Virus record (IMG/VR): IMGVR_UViG_3300013094_000012
Coordinates: 1 to 24,817 of that record
From: a virus
Strand: one strand, 5' to 3'
Length of the DNA: 24,817 bases
Positions 254 to 22,983 of this stretch are shown piece after piece (the stretch's first letter is position 1; each line of letters opens with the position of its first letter). The position numbers were made by a program, and so were the translations under genes. A model generated the notes under the pieces. It was not told the origin of the DNA, did no database searches, and saw only the letters and a program-made list of their open reading frames with translations.

Positions 254-1021
254 TTAGGCGTTGAGCAGGCTTTCAAATTCATCTATCCACTTCATGGTGA
301 GCTTTACTTTTGGGCTATTCTCGGGTGTCATGCCGGGGTCAATACCACGGAACCACATTTCTGCGGGTCTGCCACCATCGGGCGTTATGTGTGGCATCAA
401 TTCGTAGTCACACTGTCGTACTTTAGCTATAGTGCCTACCAGGCAGGCGCAATCACCGGTATATGCAGTGCCATTTATTTTTCCTTCAATGAGCGCATTT
501 TTAAGCCCCGCGATCTCATTTTTCGCCGGCAGTAGTATGGCCCACACATCATTTTTGCTGATGGCAAAAATGTGCTCCTGCCCATCTTTAACAATATTTT
601 CAACCGTTTTGTTGTCGAAGCTGCTGTTGTAGAAGCGGCTGTTGTCGAAGCTGCTGTTGTAGAAGCGGCTGTTGTAGAAGCGGCTGTTGTAGAAGCTGCT
701 GTTGTCGAAGCTGCTGTTGTAGAAGCGGCTGTTGTAGAAGCTGCTGTTGTAGAAGCGGCTGTTGTAGAAGCTGCTGTTGTAGAAGCTGCTGTTGTAGAAG
801 CTGCTGTTGTCGAAGCTGCTGTTGTAGAAGCGGCTGTTGTAGAAGCTGCTGTTGTCGAAGCTGACACCATCCAGTACATAGCCGGACAGGTCAACGCCTA
901 CTATCTTTTTCCCAGCATAAGCGGCCAGCATAGCCGTTACGGTGATCTCGGCAGTATTGTTCTCTACTTCGTGCGTAAAGAAGATACCGCCCTCAATGTT
1001 TTTGATCTCTATTTCTTTCAT
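254..1021 (-). CDS. Pentapeptide-repeat protein with phage-type C-terminal domain
   Basis: Residues 1-52 are a non-repetitive start. Residues 53-137 are 17 near-identical pentapeptides of the form [S/V][S/R]F[Y/D]N, with Phe at the central position of each coil, as expected for a right-handed quadrilateral beta-helix. Residues 138-255 are a separate domain with the patterns GDCACLVGTIA, RPAEMWFRGIDPG and MKWIDEFESLL, a combination I recall from phage and plasmid pentapeptide proteins. Pentapeptide proteins in other systems mimic DNA or act as surface scaffolds; the role here is unknown. No signal peptide is visible, so it is probably cytoplasmic. Third in the run of early genes from 2027. The coding DNA is a 15-bp minisatellite that can gain or lose units without a frameshift. 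Confidence 0.85.
   Translation of the reverse strand: MKEIEIKNIEGGIFFTHEVENNTAEITVTAMLAAYAGKKIVGVDLSGYVLDGVSFDNSSFYNSRFYNSSFDNSSFYNSSFYNSSFYNSRFYNSSFYNSRFYNSSFDNSSFYNSRFYNSRFYNSSFDNSRFYNSSFDNKTVENIVKDGQEHIFAISKNDVWAILLPAKNEIAGLKNALIEGKINGTAYTGDCACLVGTIAKVRQCDYELMPHITPDGGRPAEMWFRGIDPGMTPENSPKVKLTMKWIDEFESLLNA
611..865 (-). repeat. In-frame 15-bp minisatellite (17 units)
   Basis: Seventeen tandem 15-bp units encode the pentapeptides. Read on the minus strand the unit is KACAACAGCMGCTTC, and nearly all variation is at two bases: K is T or G (Tyr or Asp) and M is A or C (Ser or Arg). All other bases are almost constant. The opposite strand is also open because the period is a multiple of three; those reading frames are artefacts. 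Confidence 0.95.
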
Positions 1022-7250: not shown

Positions 7251-7841
7251 TTAAGCCAGTTGTATGCGCTCACCGTAGTAGTGATCGCCGTTTTCATATC
7301 TTTCTGCTATACGCCTCTGTGCCGCCTGCAGCACCTTCGCTTTTGGTATCAGGTGTGCTTTGTGCCGGAACTCATCTACCTGGTGAAACAGTATAATATT
7401 GTTCGCCCACTTTAGAAGCCGTATAGGGATTTCGCTTGCACTGTGATAAATGAAGTATATCTCCACATTGTATTTCCTGCGTTGTTTTCCCAACTTCCGA
7501 AGGGCGGGAATAGGTTCATCTCCGTTGAACATTTGCTCTTTATATTCGCCCGCCTCATCCAGCACTATCATCCCATTTCTGTATTTCTTTGCGCATGCTG
7601 CCAAAAAAACATCGCAGGGTACCGTATCCGCATCTATGCACACTTTGCCGCCGCGGTAACTGGTTAGCGGTATAGCAGGCATACCTTTGAACGGGTTACC
7701 ATTAAGATCGATGCTCTCTACATATACCAGCACGTTTTTAAAGTGGGTTTCCTTTATCCGCTCATCAATAAACGTGCTTTTGCCTGTGCCATTAGTGCCA
7801 CAGACAATGTTCCATCGTGCATATTTATCGTTACCTACCAC
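7251..7841 (-). CDS. P-loop ATPase, putative genome-packaging ATPase (FtsK/HerA or A32-like)
   Basis: 196 aa. Walker A is GTNGTGKST (residues 15-23) and Walker B is MIVLDE (91-96), followed by AGEY. A further motif, IYFIYHSASEIP (128-139), stands where packaging ATPases and Zot-like proteins carry their sensor region, then WANNIILFHQ. Length and motif order are close to the packaging ATPases of PRD1- and PM2-type tailless viruses (about 200-230 aa), which power DNA entry at one capsid vertex. A Zot-like secretion ATPase is the alternative, but those usually have a membrane span, which is absent here. The start is GTG at 7841, 4 bp after the previous stop; no ATG lies nearby in frame. No terminase is present in the circle, supporting the packaging role. 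Confidence 0.75.
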   Translation of the reverse strand: MVGNDKYARWNIVCGTNGTGKSTFIDERIKETHFKNVLVYVESIDLNGNPFKGMPAIPLTSYRGGKVCIDADTVPCDVFLAACAKKYRNGMIVLDEAGEYKEQMFNGDEPIPALRKLGKQRRKYNVEIYFIYHSASEIPIRLLKWANNIILFHQVDEFRHKAHLIPKAKVLQAAQRRIAERYENGDHYYGERIQLA

Positions 7842-9527: not shown

Positions 9528-9593
9528 GCCTGTTGGGTTAATGCCTGCAGTGCTGCTTTTTTCGGCGGGTATCAATGGTGTATGTGTGTGATT

Positions 9594-9624
9594 TGTAAAG
9601 TCAAATGTAAAGAATTTCTTTACG
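9594..9624. promoter_or_regulatory. Operator site 2
   Basis: TGTAAAG at 9594 and 9606 and CTTTACG at 9618 repeat the 12-bp register of site 1, with the last two forming a palindrome around a 5-nt centre (one outer base differs from the full form). CAAATGTAAAG around the second unit is identical to site 1. It overlaps the promoter of the ATPase operon. Confidence 0.85.
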
Positions 9625-9632
9625 TAAACAAT
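9602..9632 (-). promoter_or_regulatory. Promoter of the second leftward operon
   Basis: On the minus strand ATTG (9632-9629), a 19-nt spacer and TACATTTG (9609-9602) match the Bacteroidota promoter form with one change in the -33 box. The -7 box is identical to the early promoter at 2254-2261, and the operator palindrome fills the spacer in the same way. Predicted transcripts start near 9595. Confidence 0.7.
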
Positions 9633-9679
9633 AATATTGTTGTTTTTTATAAAGATTATTGTTGTTTTTCGCAAACAAA

Positions 9680-9707
9680 ATACCCCTGCCTTACGGGGCA
9701 GGGGTAT
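9680..9707 (-). terminator. Leftward intrinsic terminator at the end of the virion/lysis block
   Basis: A perfect 11-bp GC-rich stem (9680-9690 with 9697-9707) and 6-nt loop are followed on the minus strand by TTTTG. It closes the transcript that ends with the 52-aa basic gene and insulates the operator-controlled promoter just downstream. Confidence 0.85.
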
Positions 9708-9761
9708 CATAGCGCGGCCACTGTTTGTATCAGGTATCAGCCGGGCGGATAAACGAGGTGG

Positions 9762-9920
9762 TTACTTTTTCCATGCTTCTTTTACGCAGGTCTGCCACTT
9801 TTTACCGGGGCTTTTCTTGCGGATGGCTTTTGCTTTCGCCATAGCTTTTTTCATGCGGGCTTTGTTTGCTGCCTTGCCTGCTGTCTTTTTTGGTGCTGCT
9901 TTTTTCTTAGCGGTTGCCAT
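9762..9920 (-). CDS. Lys/Ala-rich histone-like small protein
   Basis: 52 aa from ATG at 9920 to TAA at 9762-9764. The translation is dominated by Lys and Ala (MATAKKKAAPKKTAGKAANK, then ARMKKAMAKAKAIRKKSPGK) with a final helix KWQTCVKEAWKK. The composition matches DNA-condensing proteins such as histone H1-like tails and viral core proteins. It is the last gene before the terminator at 9680-9707. A role in compacting the genome in the virion is inferred. Its upstream sequence is a near copy of that of the next gene to the right. Confidence 0.7.
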   Translation of the reverse strand: MATAKKKAAPKKTAGKAANKARMKKAMAKAKAIRKKSPGKKWQTCVKEAWKK

Positions 9921-9943
9921 TGTGTAATTATTAAGGGATGAAC
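9921..9943 (-). repeat. 23-bp intergenic repeat, copy 1
   Basis: A 23-bp segment directly upstream of the 52-aa start is identical to 10103-10125 upstream of the 51-aa start. It includes the end of one gene's context and the ribosome entry region of the next, so the two small genes share the same translation start environment. Confidence 0.8.
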
Positions 9944-9944
9944 A

Positions 9945-10100
9945 TTACATTTTATAGAACACCACCATTGATGTTTTACTATCTTTAAAAGAGGCCGCTT
10001 TTGCCTTGGCTTGTTTTTCAGTAAGCCCTTGAGCTATTAACGTCCTTTTTGTTGATTTGAAATAAAGCCTTACAACTTTATATCTGTCTTGCGCTGCCAT
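9945..10100 (-). CDS. Small basic 51-aa phage-type protein
   Basis: ATG at 10100, stop TAA at 9945-9947. The sequence runs RYKVVRLYFKSTKRTLIAQG, then LTEKQAKAKAASFKDSKT. The form YKVVR-x-(F/Y)-S-x-R-x-I-x-GLT-x-x-(E/K)A recalls small accessory proteins of microviruses and other phages that I know only as uncharacterised. It is basic and soluble. It starts 12 bp after the spanin-like gene ends, and the intervening repeat recurs before the next gene. Family resemblance is from memory. Confidence 0.65.
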   Translation of the reverse strand: MAAQDRYKVVRLYFKSTKRTLIAQGLTEKQAKAKAASFKDSKTSMVVFYKM

Positions 10101-10102
10101 TG

Positions 10103-10125
10103 TGTGTAATTATTAAGGGATGAAC
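10103..10125 (-). repeat. 23-bp intergenic repeat, copy 2
   Basis: Identical to 9921-9943. This copy contains the last codons and the stop of the spanin-like gene (10113), so the repeat probably arose by duplication of a gene end plus the following translation start region. Confidence 0.8.
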
Positions 10126-10697
10126 TTAAAAAATTTGAGTGTGCGTATCACCACTTCCAGTACCAGAAATGCAATAACACAGATCACGGTTATTTTCAGC
10201 CATAGCGGCCACTTGCTTTTCACCAGCTTGTCGTAGGTGATTACTGAAGCATCGCTGCTTTCGGCTGTGGTGGATCTGCTGAGGTGTGCTATACTGTCGG
10301 TCTGCGCGGTGGTCACTTCGGTGAGCATGGCTATAACGGCCCTGAGGCTATCATCGCGGCAATCTATGGTAATGCGCCCGGCAGTATCCACGGTTACTGT
10401 ACTGTGCAGGTTCCCGTTACCGGCTGTGAAGCTGTGGGCGGTATGGGTGGCCGTGAGCTGCCCGGCGCTGAATGTCTGCGATACATCGTATGCAGGCAGG
10501 GTAATAACCGTATCATGTATGCGCACCGTTTCCTTTACTATATGATCATGCACAGCCGTATCGTGTACAAATACCTTCAGGGTATCGTGTACAGCGGTAG
10601 TGCTGGTAATGGTGTGCTTTGTGCTTACGCAGCCAGTGTGCAGGAGCAGGAGGCAGGAGGCAGATAGCGCGAGTAATAAATTCCGTAGTGCTTTCAT
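10113..10697 (-). CDS. Putative unimolecular spanin (lipoprotein with C-terminal span)
   Basis: 194 aa. The N-terminus is a lipoprotein-like signal (hydrophobic 7-19, then LHTGC with Cys23; the -3 residue is His, tolerable only under the loose Bacteroidota lipobox). The centre is a Thr/His/Asp-rich region predicted to be beta-structured (VHDTLKVFVHDTAVHDHIV). Residues about 163-184 (WPLWLKITVICVIAFLVLEV) form a transmembrane helix with a basic end. An outer-membrane lipid anchor plus an inner-membrane C-terminal span is the defining layout of u-spanins such as T1 gp11, which fuse the two membranes at lysis. It follows the holin-like gene by 3 bp, which supports a lysis role. Confidence 0.65.
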   Translation of the reverse strand: MKALRNLLLALSASCLLLLHTGCVSTKHTITSTTAVHDTLKVFVHDTAVHDHIVKETVRIHDTVITLPAYDVSQTFSAGQLTATHTAHSFTAGNGNLHSTVTVDTAGRITIDCRDDSLRAVIAMLTEVTTAQTDSIAHLSRSTTAESSDASVITYDKLVKSKWPLWLKITVICVIAFLVLEVVIRTLKFFKFIP

Positions 10698-10700
10698 GGC

Positions 10701-10970
10701 TTATTGATGTGATTGTGTAAACTGCTTGATGAGGTCTTTACATTCCTGCATCATCTGCGTGTTGTTATCAATGATCTGCATCATCTTGCAGCGATCATCG
10801 GCCATGTAGGCTTCCAGCTTGTCGTTAAGTGCCTGGTTGGCGGTTTCGCTGGCTTTGTGCTGCTGGTTGAACCATATAACGGCAAAAACGAGCAGGGTAA
10901 CTACCGGCCCCTGGTTGATGAGGTTGGCGATACTAAGGCCGGGCAATATTTGTAAGATGAGCTGGTGCAT
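10701..10970 (-). CDS. Holin-like protein (BhlA/UviB-like layout)
   Basis: 89 aa. One span at about 20-36 follows a short N-terminus (NQGPVVTLLVFAVIWFNQQ). A charged helix continues to the end (KLEAYMADDRCKMMQIIDNN and onward). One span, the QGP start and the long C-terminal helix match the BhlA/UviB holin-like family as I remember it. Holins permeabilise the inner membrane to release or activate the endolysin. The spanin-like gene is next and the lysozyme is three genes upstream on the same strand. A virion membrane protein is the alternative. Confidence 0.6.
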   Translation of the reverse strand: MHQLILQILPGLSIANLINQGPVVTLLVFAVIWFNQQHKASETANQALNDKLEAYMADDRCKMMQIIDNNTQMMQECKDLIKQFTQSHQ

Positions 10971-11003: not shown

Positions 11004-11123
11004 TCAGGCGCTGAAAGATTTATTTATCAGGTTGGTTGTACTGCCGTTGCCTGCGTATACCACTATGGCATACCAGGCAGCGGCTATAACGGCCAGCAAT
11101 ACTATGAGCCATACGTACCGCAT
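11004..11123 (-). CDS. 39-aa single-span membrane protein
   Basis: ATG at 11123-11121 overlaps the stop of the upstream gene as TAATG. The translation begins RYVWLIVLLAVIAAAWYAIV and ends NLINKSFSA: one membrane helix with a short basic start, then a polar tail. Overlap with the neighbouring stop codon supports real translation. Probably a small virion or lysis membrane protein. No family recognised. Confidence 0.65.
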   Translation of the reverse strand: MRYVWLIVLLAVIAAAWYAIVVYAGNGSTTNLINKSFSA

Positions 11124-11560
11124 TAGCCCAGCGATAATATGCCGCTGGTAGCCATAGGCTTAGCAGGCGCTTTACCTAATACGGTTACAGGGCTGGTGAG
11201 CACGGGTGTTTTTGCCGCTATGCTTACAAAGCCACCGGCAGGCTTGCCTGTTGTGGGCGCTGGTGTGGGCTTGCCTGCAGCCGGTGTAGCTACGGGCAAT
11301 GTTACCGTAGTGCTGCCACTGGGTGTGGTAGTGGTGGTGGTAGCTGCAATGGTTGTTACTCCACTGGGCGATGTAGGCGGCGCCGCAAAAGGCGAACCAG
11401 TGGCGCTGCCGGTGGCTGTGCCTGTAGTGGTAGTGCTGCCGGGTGTGCCGGTGCCCGTGGTGGTAGTGCCGGGAGCTGGTGTGCCGTACTTGGTATAGAG
11501 CCAGTAAATGCCTGCTGCCGCAATGATGGCCACGCCGATGTAGATGTAGGTCTTTTTCAT
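11123..11560 (-). CDS. Single-span protein with Thr/Pro/Gly-rich tail
   Basis: 145 aa. After MKKTYIYIGVAIIAAAGIYW (one span, residues 4-22) the rest is low-complexity: Thr, Gly, Pro, Ala and Ser, with runs such as TTTTGTGTPGSTTTTGT. The end (KTPVLTSPVTVLGKAPAK) is beta-like. The charge pattern predicts a cytoplasmic N-terminus and an exported tail. Tails of this kind act as flexible spacers, so this could be a membrane-to-capsid linker in a virion with an internal membrane (inference). Start and stop codons overlap both neighbours as TAATG. Confidence 0.7.
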   Translation of the reverse strand: MKKTYIYIGVAIIAAAGIYWLYTKYGTPAPGTTTTGTGTPGSTTTTGTATGSATGSPFAAPPTSPSGVTTIAATTTTTTPSGSTTVTLPVATPAAGKPTPAPTTGKPAGGFVSIAAKTPVLTSPVTVLGKAPAKPMATSGILSLG

Positions 11561-11853
11561 TATGCTAATGTTTGTACGGTTGTTTCAAATTGGTTAAAAG
11601 ATGCCTGGCTTTGATTAAAGAGCGCATCCCATATGCTTGGGTCTCCGCCTGCTACTGCAGTAGTGCCGGAAGTGGGTGTACTTCCCACCGATCCCGGAGG
11701 ATAATACGCGCCCGCACTGTTTCCCGCTCCCTGATTGCCTGCCCCTGCCGCCTGCCCCTGTGTCTTGCCATGTGCTACAGAAAGGTGCATGATCACCATA
11801 ACGATAACCAGTATGCCCAGTGCGTAGAGTATGATCTTCATTGTCTTGCTCAT
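11560..11853 (-). CDS. Single-span small virion-type membrane protein
   Basis: 97 aa. Residues 6-24 (KIILYALGILVIVMVIMHLS) form one span, followed by a Gly/Ala/Ser linker and a polar end with DPSIWDALFNQSQASFNQFE. The ATG at 11853 overlaps, as ATGA, the stop of the alternative (-1) frame of the lysozyme gene, not the stop of the lysozyme frame itself. That is good evidence that the alternative frame is translated. Function unknown, likely structural. Confidence 0.7.
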   Translation of the reverse strand: MSKTMKIILYALGILVIVMVIMHLSVAHGKTQGQAAGAGNQGAGNSAGAYYPPGSVGSTPTSGTTAVAGGDPSIWDALFNQSQASFNQFETTVQTLA

Positions 11854-11987
11854 CTTTTCAGCTTTATTATGGTAAAAATTATTATTGCTATCAGTAACAG
11901 TATCAGCAGGCTGGTGACAAGGGTGCTGTTATTCTTCACCCAGTCGGCTATATGCGGGAAAAATCCGCTTAGCTTGTCTGCTGTTTG
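11850..11987 (-). other. -1 frame extension of the lysozyme: transmembrane tail
   Basis: In the -1 frame relative to the lysozyme, from CAA at 11987-11985, 45 codons stay open to TGA at 11852-11850. They encode a polar linker (QTADKLSGFFPHIADWVKNN) and a strong membrane helix (STLVTSLLILLLIAIIIFTI). No ATG exists in this segment. The frame would be reached by -1 slippage on the T9 run at 11988-11996, by a one-base homopolymer error in the sequence, or as a separate 29-aa gene from GTG at 11939. Its TGA overlaps the next gene's ATG. Confidence 0.6.
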
Positions 11988-12484
11988 AAAAAAAAAGACG
12001 GTGTCCACGGGGTGTCAGAAAATGCCACCTCAAAGTCCTGCCGGTTTACGCGCTGGTTGGTAGGGCTGTGTATATCCCAGTTGGCAGCGAGGTATGTTTG
12101 TACACTGTCGGCATCGTAGCTGTTAGCCAGCAGGCCCGCGCGCAGATTGCTGCTTGCGTAGGCGCTGGCACCATGGCCCCAAATAAAGTGCGCTACAGCC
12201 AGCATGGCATTATAGTCGTAGCCTGCATTTTGCAGCTCCGTTACATACTGGTCTATATCCAGCGTGTCGTAGTCGTTATTAAACAGCTGCTGCACCTGTG
12301 CATCGCTTATGCTGTCGCCTATGCTTAGGTTATCGCCCGGCTCTACCAGGTGACCTATACCCACTGTGGCAAGCCCCTTGATATCGGCATATACCACATT
12401 GCGCTTACCCTCCCGCATATCGCAGTAAGGATAGAATACGTCCTTAAAATCTGTGTCTGTGCCCTGATAATTTACCGTTGCCAT
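11969..12484 (-). CDS. Phage lysozyme (GH24, T4-like) ending at a slippery T9 run
   Basis: 171 aa. The catalytic set of T4-type lysozymes is present with exact spacing: Glu25, Asp34 (9 later) and Thr40 (6 later) in REGKRNVVYADIKGLATVGI, followed by GH. It cleaves the N-acetylmuramic acid to N-acetylglucosamine bond of peptidoglycan. No signal peptide is visible. The zero frame ends PSFFFKQQTS. The codons TTT TTT TTC there form the heptamer T-TTT-TTC, a classic -1 slippery pattern, and the -1 frame adds a membrane anchor. A soluble endolysin and a membrane-bound virion lysozyme could both be made. It lies between the peptidoglycan-binding protein and the holin-like gene. Confidence 0.88.
   Translation of the reverse strand: MATVNYQGTDTDFKDVFYPYCDMREGKRNVVYADIKGLATVGIGHLVEPGDNLSIGDSISDAQVQQLFNNDYDTLDIDQYVTELQNAGYDYNAMLAVAHFIWGHGASAYASSNLRAGLLANSYDADSVQTYLAANWDIHSPTNQRVNRQDFEVAFSDTPWTPSFFFKQQTS
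11988..11996 (-). promoter_or_regulatory. Slippery homopolymer, candidate -1 frameshift site
   Basis: Nine consecutive T on the minus strand near the 3' end of the lysozyme gene. In the lysozyme frame the heptamer T-TTT-TTC allows both tRNAs to re-pair after a one-base slip. The run is also a place where sequencing errors occur. Confidence 0.55.
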
Positions 12485-12495
12485 TGTATAAAAAG

Positions 12496-13047
12496 TTATT
12501 GTGTGAATTGTACATATTGTGTGCTGGCATCTGTACTTGTTGCCGCTACAGGCGCAGCCGGTGCCGCCTGGTTGCTGCTACCATAATTGAGCGTGCCCGC
12601 CACATTGCTTACCGTGCAGCTGATTTGCGATAGGTAGGGCATATCGGCATCGGTATAGTAGCCCCATGCGGTGAGCAGGTTTATATAATAGTCGCCGTAA
12701 GTGCTGAGCAGTGCATTATTGGTATCTGTACCGAAAACGCCATCTACCGTAAGGTTAAGTGTGCTGTCAAAGGCATTGAGCATAGTTTGCAGCTCCTTTA
12801 CTTCAGGGCCGGTGCTGCCCTGGCTCAGCTGCAGGCAGGCATTGAGGTTACCGGCTGTGTAGCCGGTATACCCGCCGCCGGTGCTCTTGGTGCCCACTAC
12901 ATTGTTTGCGGTGGTCTTGGCCGGCAGCAGCTTGCCTTTTGCCTTGCCTTTAAACAAAGCCTTTATAGCAGGCATGTTGATAACGACAATAAGGCCCAGC
13001 AATACTGCCACCCCTACCCACAGCCATATTTTTGCCTTGCTGCTCAT
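12496..13047 (-). CDS. Membrane-anchored peptidoglycan-binding protein
   Basis: 183 aa. One span at 7-24 (IWLWVGVAVLLGLIVVIN) follows a basic start. After a basic linker, residues about 70-117 form a PG_binding_1 domain: LQLSQGSTGPEVKELQTML, then VDGVFGTDTNNALL, with the characteristic G-x-x-G-x-x-V-x-x-L-Q and VDGxFGxxT patterns. The C-terminal part is Ala/Pro/Ser-rich. It would bind the cell wall from a membrane, as expected of a virion entry protein or a wall-targeted lysis factor working with the lysozyme 11 bp downstream. The start overlaps the previous stop as TAATG. Confidence 0.85.
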   Translation of the reverse strand: MSSKAKIWLWVGVAVLLGLIVVINMPAIKALFKGKAKGKLLPAKTTANNVVGTKSTGGGYTGYTAGNLNACLQLSQGSTGPEVKELQTMLNAFDSTLNLTVDGVFGTDTNNALLSTYGDYYINLLTAWGYYTDADMPYLSQISCTVSNVAGTLNYGSSNQAAPAAPVAATSTDASTQYVQFTQ

Positions 13048-16885: not shown

Positions 16886-17476
16886 TTAGTTCAGTTCGCT
16901 GATCTCCGCTACATCGGTCAGACCACCTATACCCCAGTTCATTACGAAGCTGTTGCTCAGGCCGATACCTGTAATGTACATGTAGAAGTTCTTGGTAGTG
17001 ATCCACTCCTGGTCGCGTATTTCCAGTACGTTGTCATACGTACCACCGCTGTTGGTGCGGTATGGTGTCAGCGGTATTTCCTGTGGGTTCAGTATGCCGT
17101 TAGGCGCTACCTCACCAAAAAACAGGGAGCCGGTAAAGTCTGCCACCTGGTTAGTAGTGATACGCACATATTTCAGGTGCATACCTACCAGTGATATATA
17201 GTTCTTAAAGTCTGCATACCCTGCAGCGTTACCCGTACCGTTTACGGTTGAGGTCAGTATTACGTGCTGCTGATCAGGCACCGTTACAGCGCGCTGTGCG
17301 GCAATCAATCCAGGGCAAGGGCCGGGAAATATGGCGATGTTACCAGCGATACCGGTACCATCTACCGTGAAGGTCATTTTAAATTCGCCCAACGGGCTTA
17401 TTTTATTTTTCAGCTTCTTTGTAGTGGTAGTGCCGCTGTTATTGTTGCTGCCTGAGGTATTGCCTGGTTGACGCAT
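16886..17476 (-). CDS. Candidate major capsid protein (beta-rich, 196 aa)
   Basis: No membrane span or signal. After a disordered start (NTSGSNNNSGTTTTKK) the chain is a series of beta segments broken by Gly, Asn and Pro (FKMTFTVDGTGIAGNIAIF, HVILTSTVNGTGNAAG, ISLVGMHLKYVRITTN, DFTGSLFFGEVAPNG, NFYMYITGIGL). This is typical of jelly-roll folds. The length fits a single jelly roll better than a double one (usually 250-400 aa). The gene is alone between two terminators, as expected for a product needed in large excess. Capsid identity is inferred from these features and the lack of any other candidate; a secreted beta-sandwich is the main alternative. Confidence 0.55.
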   Translation of the reverse strand: MRQPGNTSGSNNNSGTTTTKKLKNKISPLGEFKMTFTVDGTGIAGNIAIFPGPCPGLIAAQRAVTVPDQQHVILTSTVNGTGNAAGYADFKNYISLVGMHLKYVRITTNQVADFTGSLFFGEVAPNGILNPQEIPLTPYRTNSGGTYDNVLEIRDQEWITTKNFYMYITGIGLSNSFVMNWGIGGLTDVAEISELN

Positions 17477-20439: not shown

Positions 20440-22983
20440 CTAGAAGGGCAAATCGGCTGTTGTTTCAGCTGCTGCAGTAACATCTTTTTCGTCTGTGCCG
20501 GCCGCTGGTTTGTAGGGCCTGCCAAATGGCTGCAGCTCGGCATTTTTCGGGTCGGTATCGGTAAAGTCTTTTCTGTGAAATTCGTAGTAGGCACCGTGGA
20601 ATATCTTAGGTTCCAGGTAGCTTTCTTTTCCCTCATCGCCCAGCGTTCTTACGGTGCGCTCTGCACGCACCGGGTACACGCCACGGGCACATGGTTTGGT
20701 TTTGTACCCCATTTCCTTTAATGTGGTTATTACATAGCGCTTGTCACTCTTTTTGAGAATATCAGTTGCTAAGCCCTCAGCCGAAATACGAAACATTTCC
20801 GCGTCGCACATATCAAACATTTCCTGTAGCTCCGTACGTATGCGCTTTTCCATATTCGACATGCTGTTATTTTTCACATCTACCAGCGCCTGTGTGTGCA
20901 GCAGCGGTGTGGCAAACCAGTGGCGCTCTTCGTCTTTGCTGGCCATGGTTCGCTTTTCCAGGTAGTGCAGGAATGCGGGTATCTCATCTACCAGCTTTTC
21001 AAGAAACTTGGGTATGGTGCGCTTCAATGGCGGCACTTTGTGTATCCAAAACCTGATCTCTTCTTTATCTATGCGTATAAAGTCCTCTACGTGGTTACTG
21101 TTCAGTATGAACTTTGCAAAAAAGCGGAGTATCACCTGATCCTTACCCTTGCTGTTGAGCACTATTTTTTGTGCAGTGCTGAGGCGTTTTATTTTATTGA
21201 TCACCTTGCCATTGTCCACTTTGGTTTCATCTACCGAGATGAACAGCTTACCGGCCCAGTGGGCGTTAAAGTCGGCTTCTATGTCCTCATTGCCTATGCT
21301 TATGGCATTGTCGCTAAACAGGGCTTCTATCCAGTTGATAAAGGTGGTCTTACCGCTCTGCCGCTCCCGGCTCACAAAGCACAGTATGGGCAGCATCTGT
21401 AAGGGGTTTTTATAAGCCAGCGTTATATAGTCGAGGCCCAGCTCATAGCGTGGTATGCTGGTCACAATGCCGTCACGGTCGGTATAGGTCACTACCTCTT
21501 CGCTAAACAGGTGCTTTATAAATTCTATGGTCAGCTCACAGTCGCCGTCTTCGGGTTCGTGCCTAAAGGGCTGGTATAGATTGTAGCAGTTGTTTATTAC
21601 CTGCTGGTAGTTGCCGTGGTCGGGCATTACACAGGGAGCATCGTATTTTTTTATGTACTGTATAAACTGCTTTCCGTGGTCGTCTATAATGGTGCCCTTC
21701 ATGCGGCCTACCAGCGTCTTTACTATCTTTTCAGTCTTGCTGTTGCTGGTGGGTATCATCACATACTTGTAGTAGTCATTGCCCATGCGTATGTAGTCGT
21801 TGGCGCTGCCTGGCATTTCCACATCACACTTGCCCTCTGCCTCGTTGTAGCGGTACTGTGTGCCGTTAAACTTAAAGTGTGGCAGGGCTTTGAGGTCGGC
21901 ACGGCGCTCACTGTGGAATAGAAAGAACTGCGTAACATCGTCAAGGAAAAAGTATTTGCGTATGCGGCTCAGGTTGTGCTGTATGTTCACCAGCACCCGG
22001 TAAGTACCCGTAACTATGCCACCCTTTACCAGCTTTGAAAAGTCGCCAAACTCAGCGGCTATCTGTGCGCCACGGTCGGGAAACTGGCACAGCAGATCGT
22101 CAAGGCCCTTCGGGTTCCCTTCCAGGTCTTCGCTGTTGATGTGGGCAAAGTAGCGCTGCACATCAGGAAACTTGCTGAGGGCGGTAAAAAAGTTGCTTAT
22201 GGTGTCAAAAAAGTTGCTGGGCCGGTGGTACAGGTCGGTATCTTCTTTCAGCTCACTGGTGGTAAGGCTGCGGCAGTCGCCATCGGTAAGCCATATAGCG
22301 TTCTCTACCTCGCATACCAATATCAGCTTTTGTATGTCGGCATGCAGCTCGTCTGTGTCCTTATCGCGCAGGCAGGTGATGGATGGCACACCCACCACAT
22401 CTATACGACCCATATCGCCCTTGAATGCCTTAAATGCACCCTCGGTAATGAACAGATCGCGCACCTGCACATCGGGCGGCAGGCGCTTACCGGGATTGGC
22501 GGCTTTCCACTCGCGGCAGGCATCATACTTAGCTACCAGGCCGGGCGGGAAGAAAGGGCGCGTAGGCTCACCCTTTGGTATGTGGTACTTCTGCACCTTG
22601 CCATCTTTGTTTACCCGCTCCGGGTACAGGCGTATGATCTTGTATACCTTATCAGCCGCTTTTATGGTGTGCCCGCTACGCTGTGCATCTTTGTGCGTCC
22701 ATATCTTGCAGCGGTCGAGGGTGTACATGAAAATATCTATGCCCTGTGTGCCCTCTGTAAATATGGGGTATGGCTTCAATACCTCGTTGCCCTGGTTGGG
22801 GCCGCTCTGCACCTCCGTTTCCCGTATCAGTATGGTATTGTGCTCCGGTGTTACGCCCAGCAGCTGCATGCGCTTTTCAAAGTAGCTCTGCTCCGGTACC
22901 AGCTGCAGTGCAGCTATTTCCGGCTGTGGTGGATCTGCAATGGTTTCGCCAAATTCATTATTAAGTATCTTTTTATTAGGCAT
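20440..22983 (-). CDS. Primase-helicase (toprim-like plus DUF5906/SF3-type helicase)
   Basis: 847 aa, the largest gene. Residues about 60-250 form a toprim-like (DUF3854-type) primase region with FITEGAFKA at 178-186 and the acidic WLTDGD at 231-236. Residues about 520-650 are a DUF5906-type helicase: Walker A-like SRERQSGKT (538-546), Walker B FISVDE (581-586) and a sensor Asn in FILNSN. The Walker A lacks the usual first Gly (Arg stands in its place), a deviation I note in a gene that otherwise looks intact. The C-terminal 180 residues look like a winged-helix DNA-binding end. It would unwind and prime replication from the adjacent iteron region. No polymerase is encoded, so host polymerase III is probably used. 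Confidence 0.85.
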   Translation of the reverse strand: MPNKKILNNEFGETIADPPQPEIAALQLVPEQSYFEKRMQLLGVTPEHNTILIRETEVQSGPNQGNEVLKPYPIFTEGTQGIDIFMYTLDRCKIWTHKDAQRSGHTIKAADKVYKIIRLYPERVNKDGKVQKYHIPKGEPTRPFFPPGLVAKYDACREWKAANPGKRLPPDVQVRDLFITEGAFKAFKGDMGRIDVVGVPSITCLRDKDTDELHADIQKLILVCEVENAIWLTDGDCRSLTTSELKEDTDLYHRPSNFFDTISNFFTALSKFPDVQRYFAHINSEDLEGNPKGLDDLLCQFPDRGAQIAAEFGDFSKLVKGGIVTGTYRVLVNIQHNLSRIRKYFFLDDVTQFFLFHSERRADLKALPHFKFNGTQYRYNEAEGKCDVEMPGSANDYIRMGNDYYKYVMIPTSNSKTEKIVKTLVGRMKGTIIDDHGKQFIQYIKKYDAPCVMPDHGNYQQVINNCYNLYQPFRHEPEDGDCELTIEFIKHLFSEEVVTYTDRDGIVTSIPRYELGLDYITLAYKNPLQMLPILCFVSRERQSGKTTFINWIEALFSDNAISIGNEDIEADFNAHWAGKLFISVDETKVDNGKVINKIKRLSTAQKIVLNSKGKDQVILRFFAKFILNSNHVEDFIRIDKEEIRFWIHKVPPLKRTIPKFLEKLVDEIPAFLHYLEKRTMASKDEERHWFATPLLHTQALVDVKNNSMSNMEKRIRTELQEMFDMCDAEMFRISAEGLATDILKKSDKRYVITTLKEMGYKTKPCARGVYPVRAERTVRTLGDEGKESYLEPKIFHGAYYEFHRKDFTDTDPKNAELQPFGRPYKPAAGTDEKDVTAAAETTADLPF

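Follow-up and report, generated by a model that had tools for sequence, protein, structure and literature searches.

The window discussed here is an entire IMG/VR virus record, 24,817 bases long and of the linear class, and its minus strand encodes a T4-type (GH24) lysozyme whose last codons, ACC CCG TGG ACA CCG TCT TTT TTT TTC AAA CAG CAG ACA AGC TAA, contain a run of nine T at which a ribosome may leave the lysozyme frame and continue into a membrane anchor (Table 1). The enzyme matches the Pfam family Phage_lysozyme (PF00959, E=2e-10), falls into the PHROG category endolysin, and matches phage lysozymes in the PDB by sequence and T4-type lysozymes by predicted fold, the latter being among the best fold matches of its structure model. 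In addition, E25-D34-T40 have the spacing of the T4 lysozyme triad and are invariant in the three viruses compared (the window, L121 and L143). Five sense codons, AAA CAG CAG ACA AGC, separate the T9 run from the 0-frame TAA, rather than the ten that an earlier note on this DNA had counted, and since residues 151-171 are disordered in the structure model, the slip site lies beyond the catalytic, folded domain as modelled and both the soluble and the anchored lysozyme should be active. The gene upstream encodes a peptidoglycan-binding protein (PG_binding_1) that is also found in L143 (6.8e-6) and L121 (2.2e-3).

Table 1. Features of the window at and around the lysozyme junction, with the two other genes used in comparisons.
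Feature	Positions	Strand	Remarks
GH24 (T4-type) lysozyme, 0-frame product	11969..12484	-	171 aa; Pfam PF00959, PHROG and PDB
-1 frame, stop to stop	11850..12014	-	adds FFFQTADKLSGFFPHIADWVKNNSTLVTSLLILLLIAIIIFTIIKLKR when read from the slip site
Slippery site TTTTTTTTTC (T9 then C)	11987..11996	-	T_TTT_TTT and T_TTT_TTC, both in the codon phase of the lysozyme
Downstream RNA structure that may stimulate frameshifting	11931..11987	-	different fold from the L121/L143 hairpin
Next gene, 97 aa, N-terminal TM	11560..11853	-	ATG overlaps the -1-frame TGA (ATGA)
N-terminally anchored peptidoglycan-binding protein (PG_binding_1), upstream of lysozyme	12496..13047	-	Pfam PF01471 6.7e-6 and synteny
Small P-loop ATPase, probable packaging ATPase, GTG start	7251..7841	-	2.3e-53 to L121
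Putative major capsid protein, 196 aa, predicted beta-rich	16886..17476	-	synteny and weak similarity; 3.2e-21 to L121

The T9 run (11996..11988 on the minus strand) is the sole homopolymer of at least nine in the whole 24,817-nt window, and because a first-order Markov simulation expects about 0.7 A/T runs of such length there, it is unremarkable when taken alone. The in-frame T_TTT_TTC that the earlier note had pointed to near the lysozyme end is indeed present, together with T_TTT_TTT. The -1 frame runs 48 codons past the slip point without a stop (45 had been given), or 54 if the count starts at the upstream stop at 12017..12015, and FFFQTADKLSGFFPHIADWVKNNSTLVTSLLILLLIAIIIFTIIKLKR, the segment gained by slipping, consists of a short linker, one transmembrane (TM) helix and a basic end, giving a frameshift product of 211 aa. 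The linker and the clear TM helix described in the earlier note are confirmed, with a mean Kyte-Doolittle value of 3.2 over 19 residues; by this hydropathy prediction, a membrane anchor is present on the frameshift product. Equally, the TGA of the -1 frame (11852..11850) does overlap the ATG of the next gene as AGATGAGC at 11853..11850, and the same ATGA overlap is kept in L121 and L143. The statement that this frame has no ATG also stands, whereas its two GTG codons, at 12008 and 11939, had gone unmentioned.

The relatives that allow this junction to be judged came from bacterial genomes. No structural relatives came from peptide-pattern scans with the lysozyme, ATPase, capsid candidates and primase, whether run on viral contigs, phages or genome contigs (the P-loop pattern matches were tailed-phage terminases and were rejected). 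A tblastn search against 50,697 phage records found none either, and a profile built from the lysozyme alignment added no further members when run on viral contigs. A primase match in Flexithrix dorotheae (L003) provided a Bacteroidia genome as the starting point, and L003 itself was rejected as a structural relative, being a prophage-like region whose candidate capsid protein and protease are of another kind. Six-frame searches of the class Bacteroidia, and then of its orders and families, using the window's P-loop ATPase as the marker together with growing ATPase alignments, yielded about 60 related loci in genomes of the class to which Flexithrix belongs. Many of these loci, like the window, contain series of short genes whose products have a TM helix at the N or C terminus, and together the loci form a wide group of viruses in Bacteroidia genomes that has been little described.

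Two of these loci, L121 and L143, complete a comparative set of three sequences, and both come from one metagenome-type genome bin, L121 being G1399 contig 525 and L143 being contig 191 of the same genome. At least 12 genes of L121 match the window, including the integrase, the ATPase (2.3e-53), the lysozyme (1.8e-57), the primase (8.4e-98) and the putative capsid protein (3.2e-21). The window's lysozyme is 51-52% identical to its counterparts in L121 and L143. The two differ from each other at 28 of the 90 bases in the 30 codons ahead of the junction, and they are therefore two distinct viruses. Both lysozymes terminate 8 codons past the homologous point and have the homologous TM segment in the -1 frame: the 0 frame of L121 ends with TPWEPGFILPSPSN before its stop, and the TM homologue is found in the -1 frame at 9547..9729 (2.3e-8), where the TGA again overlaps the next ATG, while in L143 the 0 frame ends with TPWQPGFTLPSRSN and the -1 frame with GFYFAVTEQLTDWFPAAADFIKEHSMAVTITLMILILAILFYFFYIKKQKL. 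When read through the slip, the products of the window, L121 and L143 would be 211, 216 and 216 aa, and they align without gaps across the junction, where the three read TPWTPSFFFQTADKLSGFFP / TPWEPGFYFAVSEQLNGWFP / TPWQPGFYFAVTEQLTDWFP. An in-phase X_XXY_YYZ heptamer is found where the overlap starts in all three viruses; at the homologous site in L121 (9577-9583) and L143 (5491-5497) it is G_GGT_TTT, in the context CCG GGT TTT. Comparison of the junction in relatives, which the earlier note had proposed, thus finds the frame break and a slippery heptamer kept, and the same frame relation with a different slip sequence is more than chance and supports the proposal of that note that frameshifting gives a membrane-anchored lysozyme. 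L121 alone has another in-phase GGGTTTT about 28 bases upstream of the conserved one (about 9549-9555), and a slip there would also enter the -1 frame.

For ALTERNATIVES, a misread T10, transcriptional slippage and a separate membrane gene were weighed against frameshifting. If the record contained an error of sequencing or assembly, or if an indel had recently inactivated the gene, the true gene would have ten T and encode one continuous lysozyme-TM protein. The homopolymer speaks for this, as do the many relatives with continuous C-terminal TM enzymes; however, the same break occurs at the same place in L121 and L143, at G_GGT_TTT and without a homopolymer, and the -1 frame is intact and under coding constraint. 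A misread run is scarcely credible on these grounds, and with regard to the ten T in one continuous frame that the earlier note had named as its refutation, the relatives exclude this for the family, in which the break is real. Nine T are also long enough for slippage by bacterial RNA polymerase, and one added U in the mRNA would lead to read-through into the anchor and yield the identical protein. Transcriptional slippage as a class has been reviewed (PMC5009743), and it could add to ribosomal slipping in the window virus, but the window is the only one of the three with a homopolymer as long as about nine where the shift occurs. L121 and L143 have only GGGTTTT, at which such slippage cannot work, so it cannot be the mechanism across the family, and this explanation is highly improbable.

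The evidence that the -1 frame is itself coding comes from the two closest sequences. Between L121 and L143, identity in the -1 frame is 2 of 9 residues before the slip site and 19 of 24 after it, with 6 of 9 residues identical in the 0 frame before the slip site, and past the 0-frame TAA the nucleotide differences fall 12/9/24 at codon positions 1/2/3 of the -1 frame, a third-position bias which argues that this frame is translated. Translation of this frame could, of course, also come from a small membrane gene of its own, holin-like for instance, that overlaps the lysozyme and is started either at one of the GTG codons (12008 or 11939) or through reinitiation past the TAA. The GTG at 12008 is in phase, small overlapping TM genes are common in the related loci, and the two GTG codons of the window and the GTG and internal ATG codons in the -1 frame of L143 leave room for initiation in those two viruses. 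Moreover, the window's ATPase gene has an apparent GTG start (7841) behind an A-rich leader, so GTG starts are probably in use in this virus. Against such a gene, the GTG of the window (0-frame CCG TGG) is GTG in L143 but CTG in L121, where the 0-frame codon is CCC, and L121 contains no ATG, GTG or TTG in the -1 frame ahead of the TM segment; the A-rich upstream regions at the window GTG codons are poor (scores of -2.6 and -2.9, versus a mean of 2.7 for 37 window starts); and the point from which the -1 frames resemble each other is the slip site rather than the GTG. I consider a separate gene very unlikely, and the earlier note's other counter-case, a separate start codon for the membrane segment in relatives, is answered by L121. 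The combination is also rare, since among 1,227 genes scanned in 59 related loci a start-less -1 TM extension together with an in-phase heptamer was found only in the L121 lysozyme, the L143 lysozyme having the heptamer but with start-like codons; many genes in these loci precede a -1-frame TM gene that possesses a start of its own. The window itself came up in a comparable scan.

A stimulatory RNA structure downstream is one mark of programmed -1 ribosomal frameshifting, and candidates can be found at the junctions compared here. In L121 and L143, hairpins begin 2-5 nt past the heptamer, are conserved at the same place, and by energy rank in the top ~1% for stability among the 60-nt tiles of their contigs (~6% by z). 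The window has a different fold that is not homologous to the hairpin of the relatives and is ordinary in energy, with a z of -3.1 for the 66 nt that begin at the slip site and, among tiles, a z of -2.7 that places it in the top 3% by z and only the top 19% by energy. As for the heptamers, mammalian ribosomes shift on G_GGU_UUU more readily than on most other -1 heptamers, and in E. coli both U_UUU_UUA and U_UUU_UUU slipped less than A_AAA_AAG (PMC5009743).

Because the products are ungapped, the similarity begins at the slip site, L121 is start-less, hairpins follow the heptamers of L121 and L143 and the arrangement is rare in the scan, the lysozyme junction is read as FRAMESHIFTING. By sequence comparison, the frame break, the slip site, the coding in the -1 frame and the anchor are conserved, and conserved programmed -1 ribosomal frameshifting that would anchor a lysozyme is strongly supported. 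Most ribosomes would stop at the 0-frame TAA and release a soluble GH24 lysozyme of ~171 aa, and a fraction would slip back one base at T_TTT_TT[T/C] in the window, or at G_GGT_TTT in the two relatives, probably aided by the downstream RNA structure, and read ~48 further codons to append the short linker and C-terminal TM helix of an anchored form of ~211 aa. The anchored lysozyme would most likely reside in the viral membrane as an entry lysin and the soluble one would act in lysis; I give this explanation, with a slip-made anchored form beside a soluble enzyme, a probability of about 0.85, and it is the efficiency of slipping, the virion location and the division of labour between the two forms that I infer. 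Retention of the 0-frame stop was also considered as a sign of selection for two products and dropped, since synonymous resampling found it to be not above chance given the -1-frame protein (P 0.54, window). Selection for the soluble product would be indicated by the frame break being kept at all, not by the stop.

Most known cases of programmed frameshifting in DNA phages concern the tail chaperones and capsid proteins of tailed phages. The mechanism proposed here is of a known kind, since in lambda G/GT, gene 10 of T3/T7 and the capsid extension of phage A2 a fixed share of ribosomes likewise undergoes programmed -1 frameshifting near the 3' end of a structural gene and adds a C-terminal domain (PMC5009743), but those are tail chaperones or capsid proteins of tailed phages, whereas the window would have a membrane anchor added to a lysozyme and has no recognised tail genes. 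Lysins are named among frameshift genes in the PRFect paper, which cites a lactococcal phage lysin (PMC10885494), a lytic enzyme whose product, as cited there, may involve overlapping frames as in the window; a soluble and anchored pair or a membrane virus would be features of the window and are not ones seen for the lactococcal lysin in that citation. A likeness in outcome is seen in the Ebola virus glycoprotein, where recoding near the gene end also decides between a soluble and a membrane-bound form (PMC5009743), but there it is the polymerase of an animal RNA virus that slips and not the ribosome in a phage-infected cell. The open-licence literature yielded no account of a phage lysozyme that gains a membrane anchor by frameshifting, which is not proof of novelty, and a conserved slip that sets how much lysozyme is soluble and how much is membrane-anchored would be a new use of recoding. 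If true, one gene in a compact genome would serve both entry and exit, and the junction would offer a ready reporter for frameshifting in Bacteroidota; gene callers, on the other hand, will overlook the anchor and annotate a plain endolysin.

The role of the anchored form can be approached through the cell-wall enzymes of related viruses. PRD1 has a virion-associated muramidase, P15, that also serves lysis (PMC6356626), and FLiP has a structural lytic transglycosylase, P14, to which a part in entry is ascribed (PMC7654751); these are cell-wall enzymes in the particles of tailless membrane-containing phages, for which no frameshift is mentioned. By analogy with P15 and P14, entry would fall to the anchored lysozyme, and the soluble form would act as the endolysin. 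A survey of cell-wall enzymes in the related loci comprised 26 entries, two of which are the same L121 lysozyme, and placed the TM segment N-terminally in 10 and C-terminally in one continuous frame in another 10 (L077, L079, L080, L087, L089, L133, L135-L137 and L139); three had no clear terminal TM (one fragment, one borderline N-terminal case and one without), and the other entries are the L121 and L143 lysozymes. The enzymes belong to unrelated families by Pfam (GH108 with PG_binding_3, glucosaminidase, M15 and DUF2272), with M23-like enzymes recognised by eye, and since most carry a TM segment, the anchor is a recurring feature that is acquired by N-terminal fusion, by C-terminal fusion or by frameshift, which agrees with a soluble enzyme for lysis and an anchored one in the virion. 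The GH108 enzyme of L098 has no TM, and no shifted anchor was found there in any frame. L137 contains tandem GH108-type enzymes (9896-10663 and 11061-11873), each with a C-terminal TM. In L120, 5807-6304 was initially taken as a soluble lysozyme and has no Pfam match.

Should the frameshift be real, the anchored form might still serve lysis rather than entry, as a membrane-held endolysin that is released or activated when the cell is opened. Held or membrane-tethered endolysins do exist, namely those of the signal-anchor-release (SAR) type, and weak holin-like and spanin-like candidates lie just downstream of the lysozyme region (10701..10970 and 10113..10697), but the anchor here is C-terminal, versus N-terminal in SAR endolysins, and the neighbours of the gene encode structural membrane proteins, while related loci often have another anchored cell-wall enzyme in its stead, so that a role in lysis seems rather unlikely. 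Extending the preferred reading, in which the anchored lysozyme acts at entry, the frameshift may be a dosage switch in membrane-protein-rich Bacteroidota viruses, supplying soluble endolysin for exit and a fixed anchored fraction in the virion membrane for entry, with distant relatives achieving the anchor by continuous genes; for this wider proposal the balance is even.

Gene content suggests that the virus is tailless and membrane-containing, a view drawn from genes only, as the AlphaFold2 model of the putative capsid protein is of low confidence (pLDDT 51), too poor to help, and its fold matches were dismissed as meaningless for that reason. Among membrane-containing phages, FLiP (Finnlakeviridae) has a 9.2 kb genome and no packaging ATPase (PMC7654751), whereas the record studied here is 24.8 kb and contains a P-loop ATPase that the related loci share, so that the window does not match that family in these respects.

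Several other genes merit a brief mention. The large DUF5906 primase-helicase of the window (20440..22983) is 30% identical to one in the Flexithrix prophage-like region L003, which is of another kind, and this similarity suggests an exchange of replication genes between virus groups. An ATPase closely similar to that of the window (2e-15) occurs in L085 (G1256:C31, 9775..10368) without recognisable virion genes, next to an apparent CRISPR-like repeat array toward the contig end. Anchored proteins of several loci (L013 8198..7719, L014 14813..15295 and L011 9063..8608) contain an annexin-like motif, AMKGxGTDE, with Pfam Annexin E-values of 0.0013 to 0.044 for proteins of this type, which do not reach the Pfam cut-off. 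Finally, the window encodes at 254..1021 a pentapeptide-repeat protein with many SFYNSRFYNS-type units (Pfam Pentapeptide_3, 2e-13).
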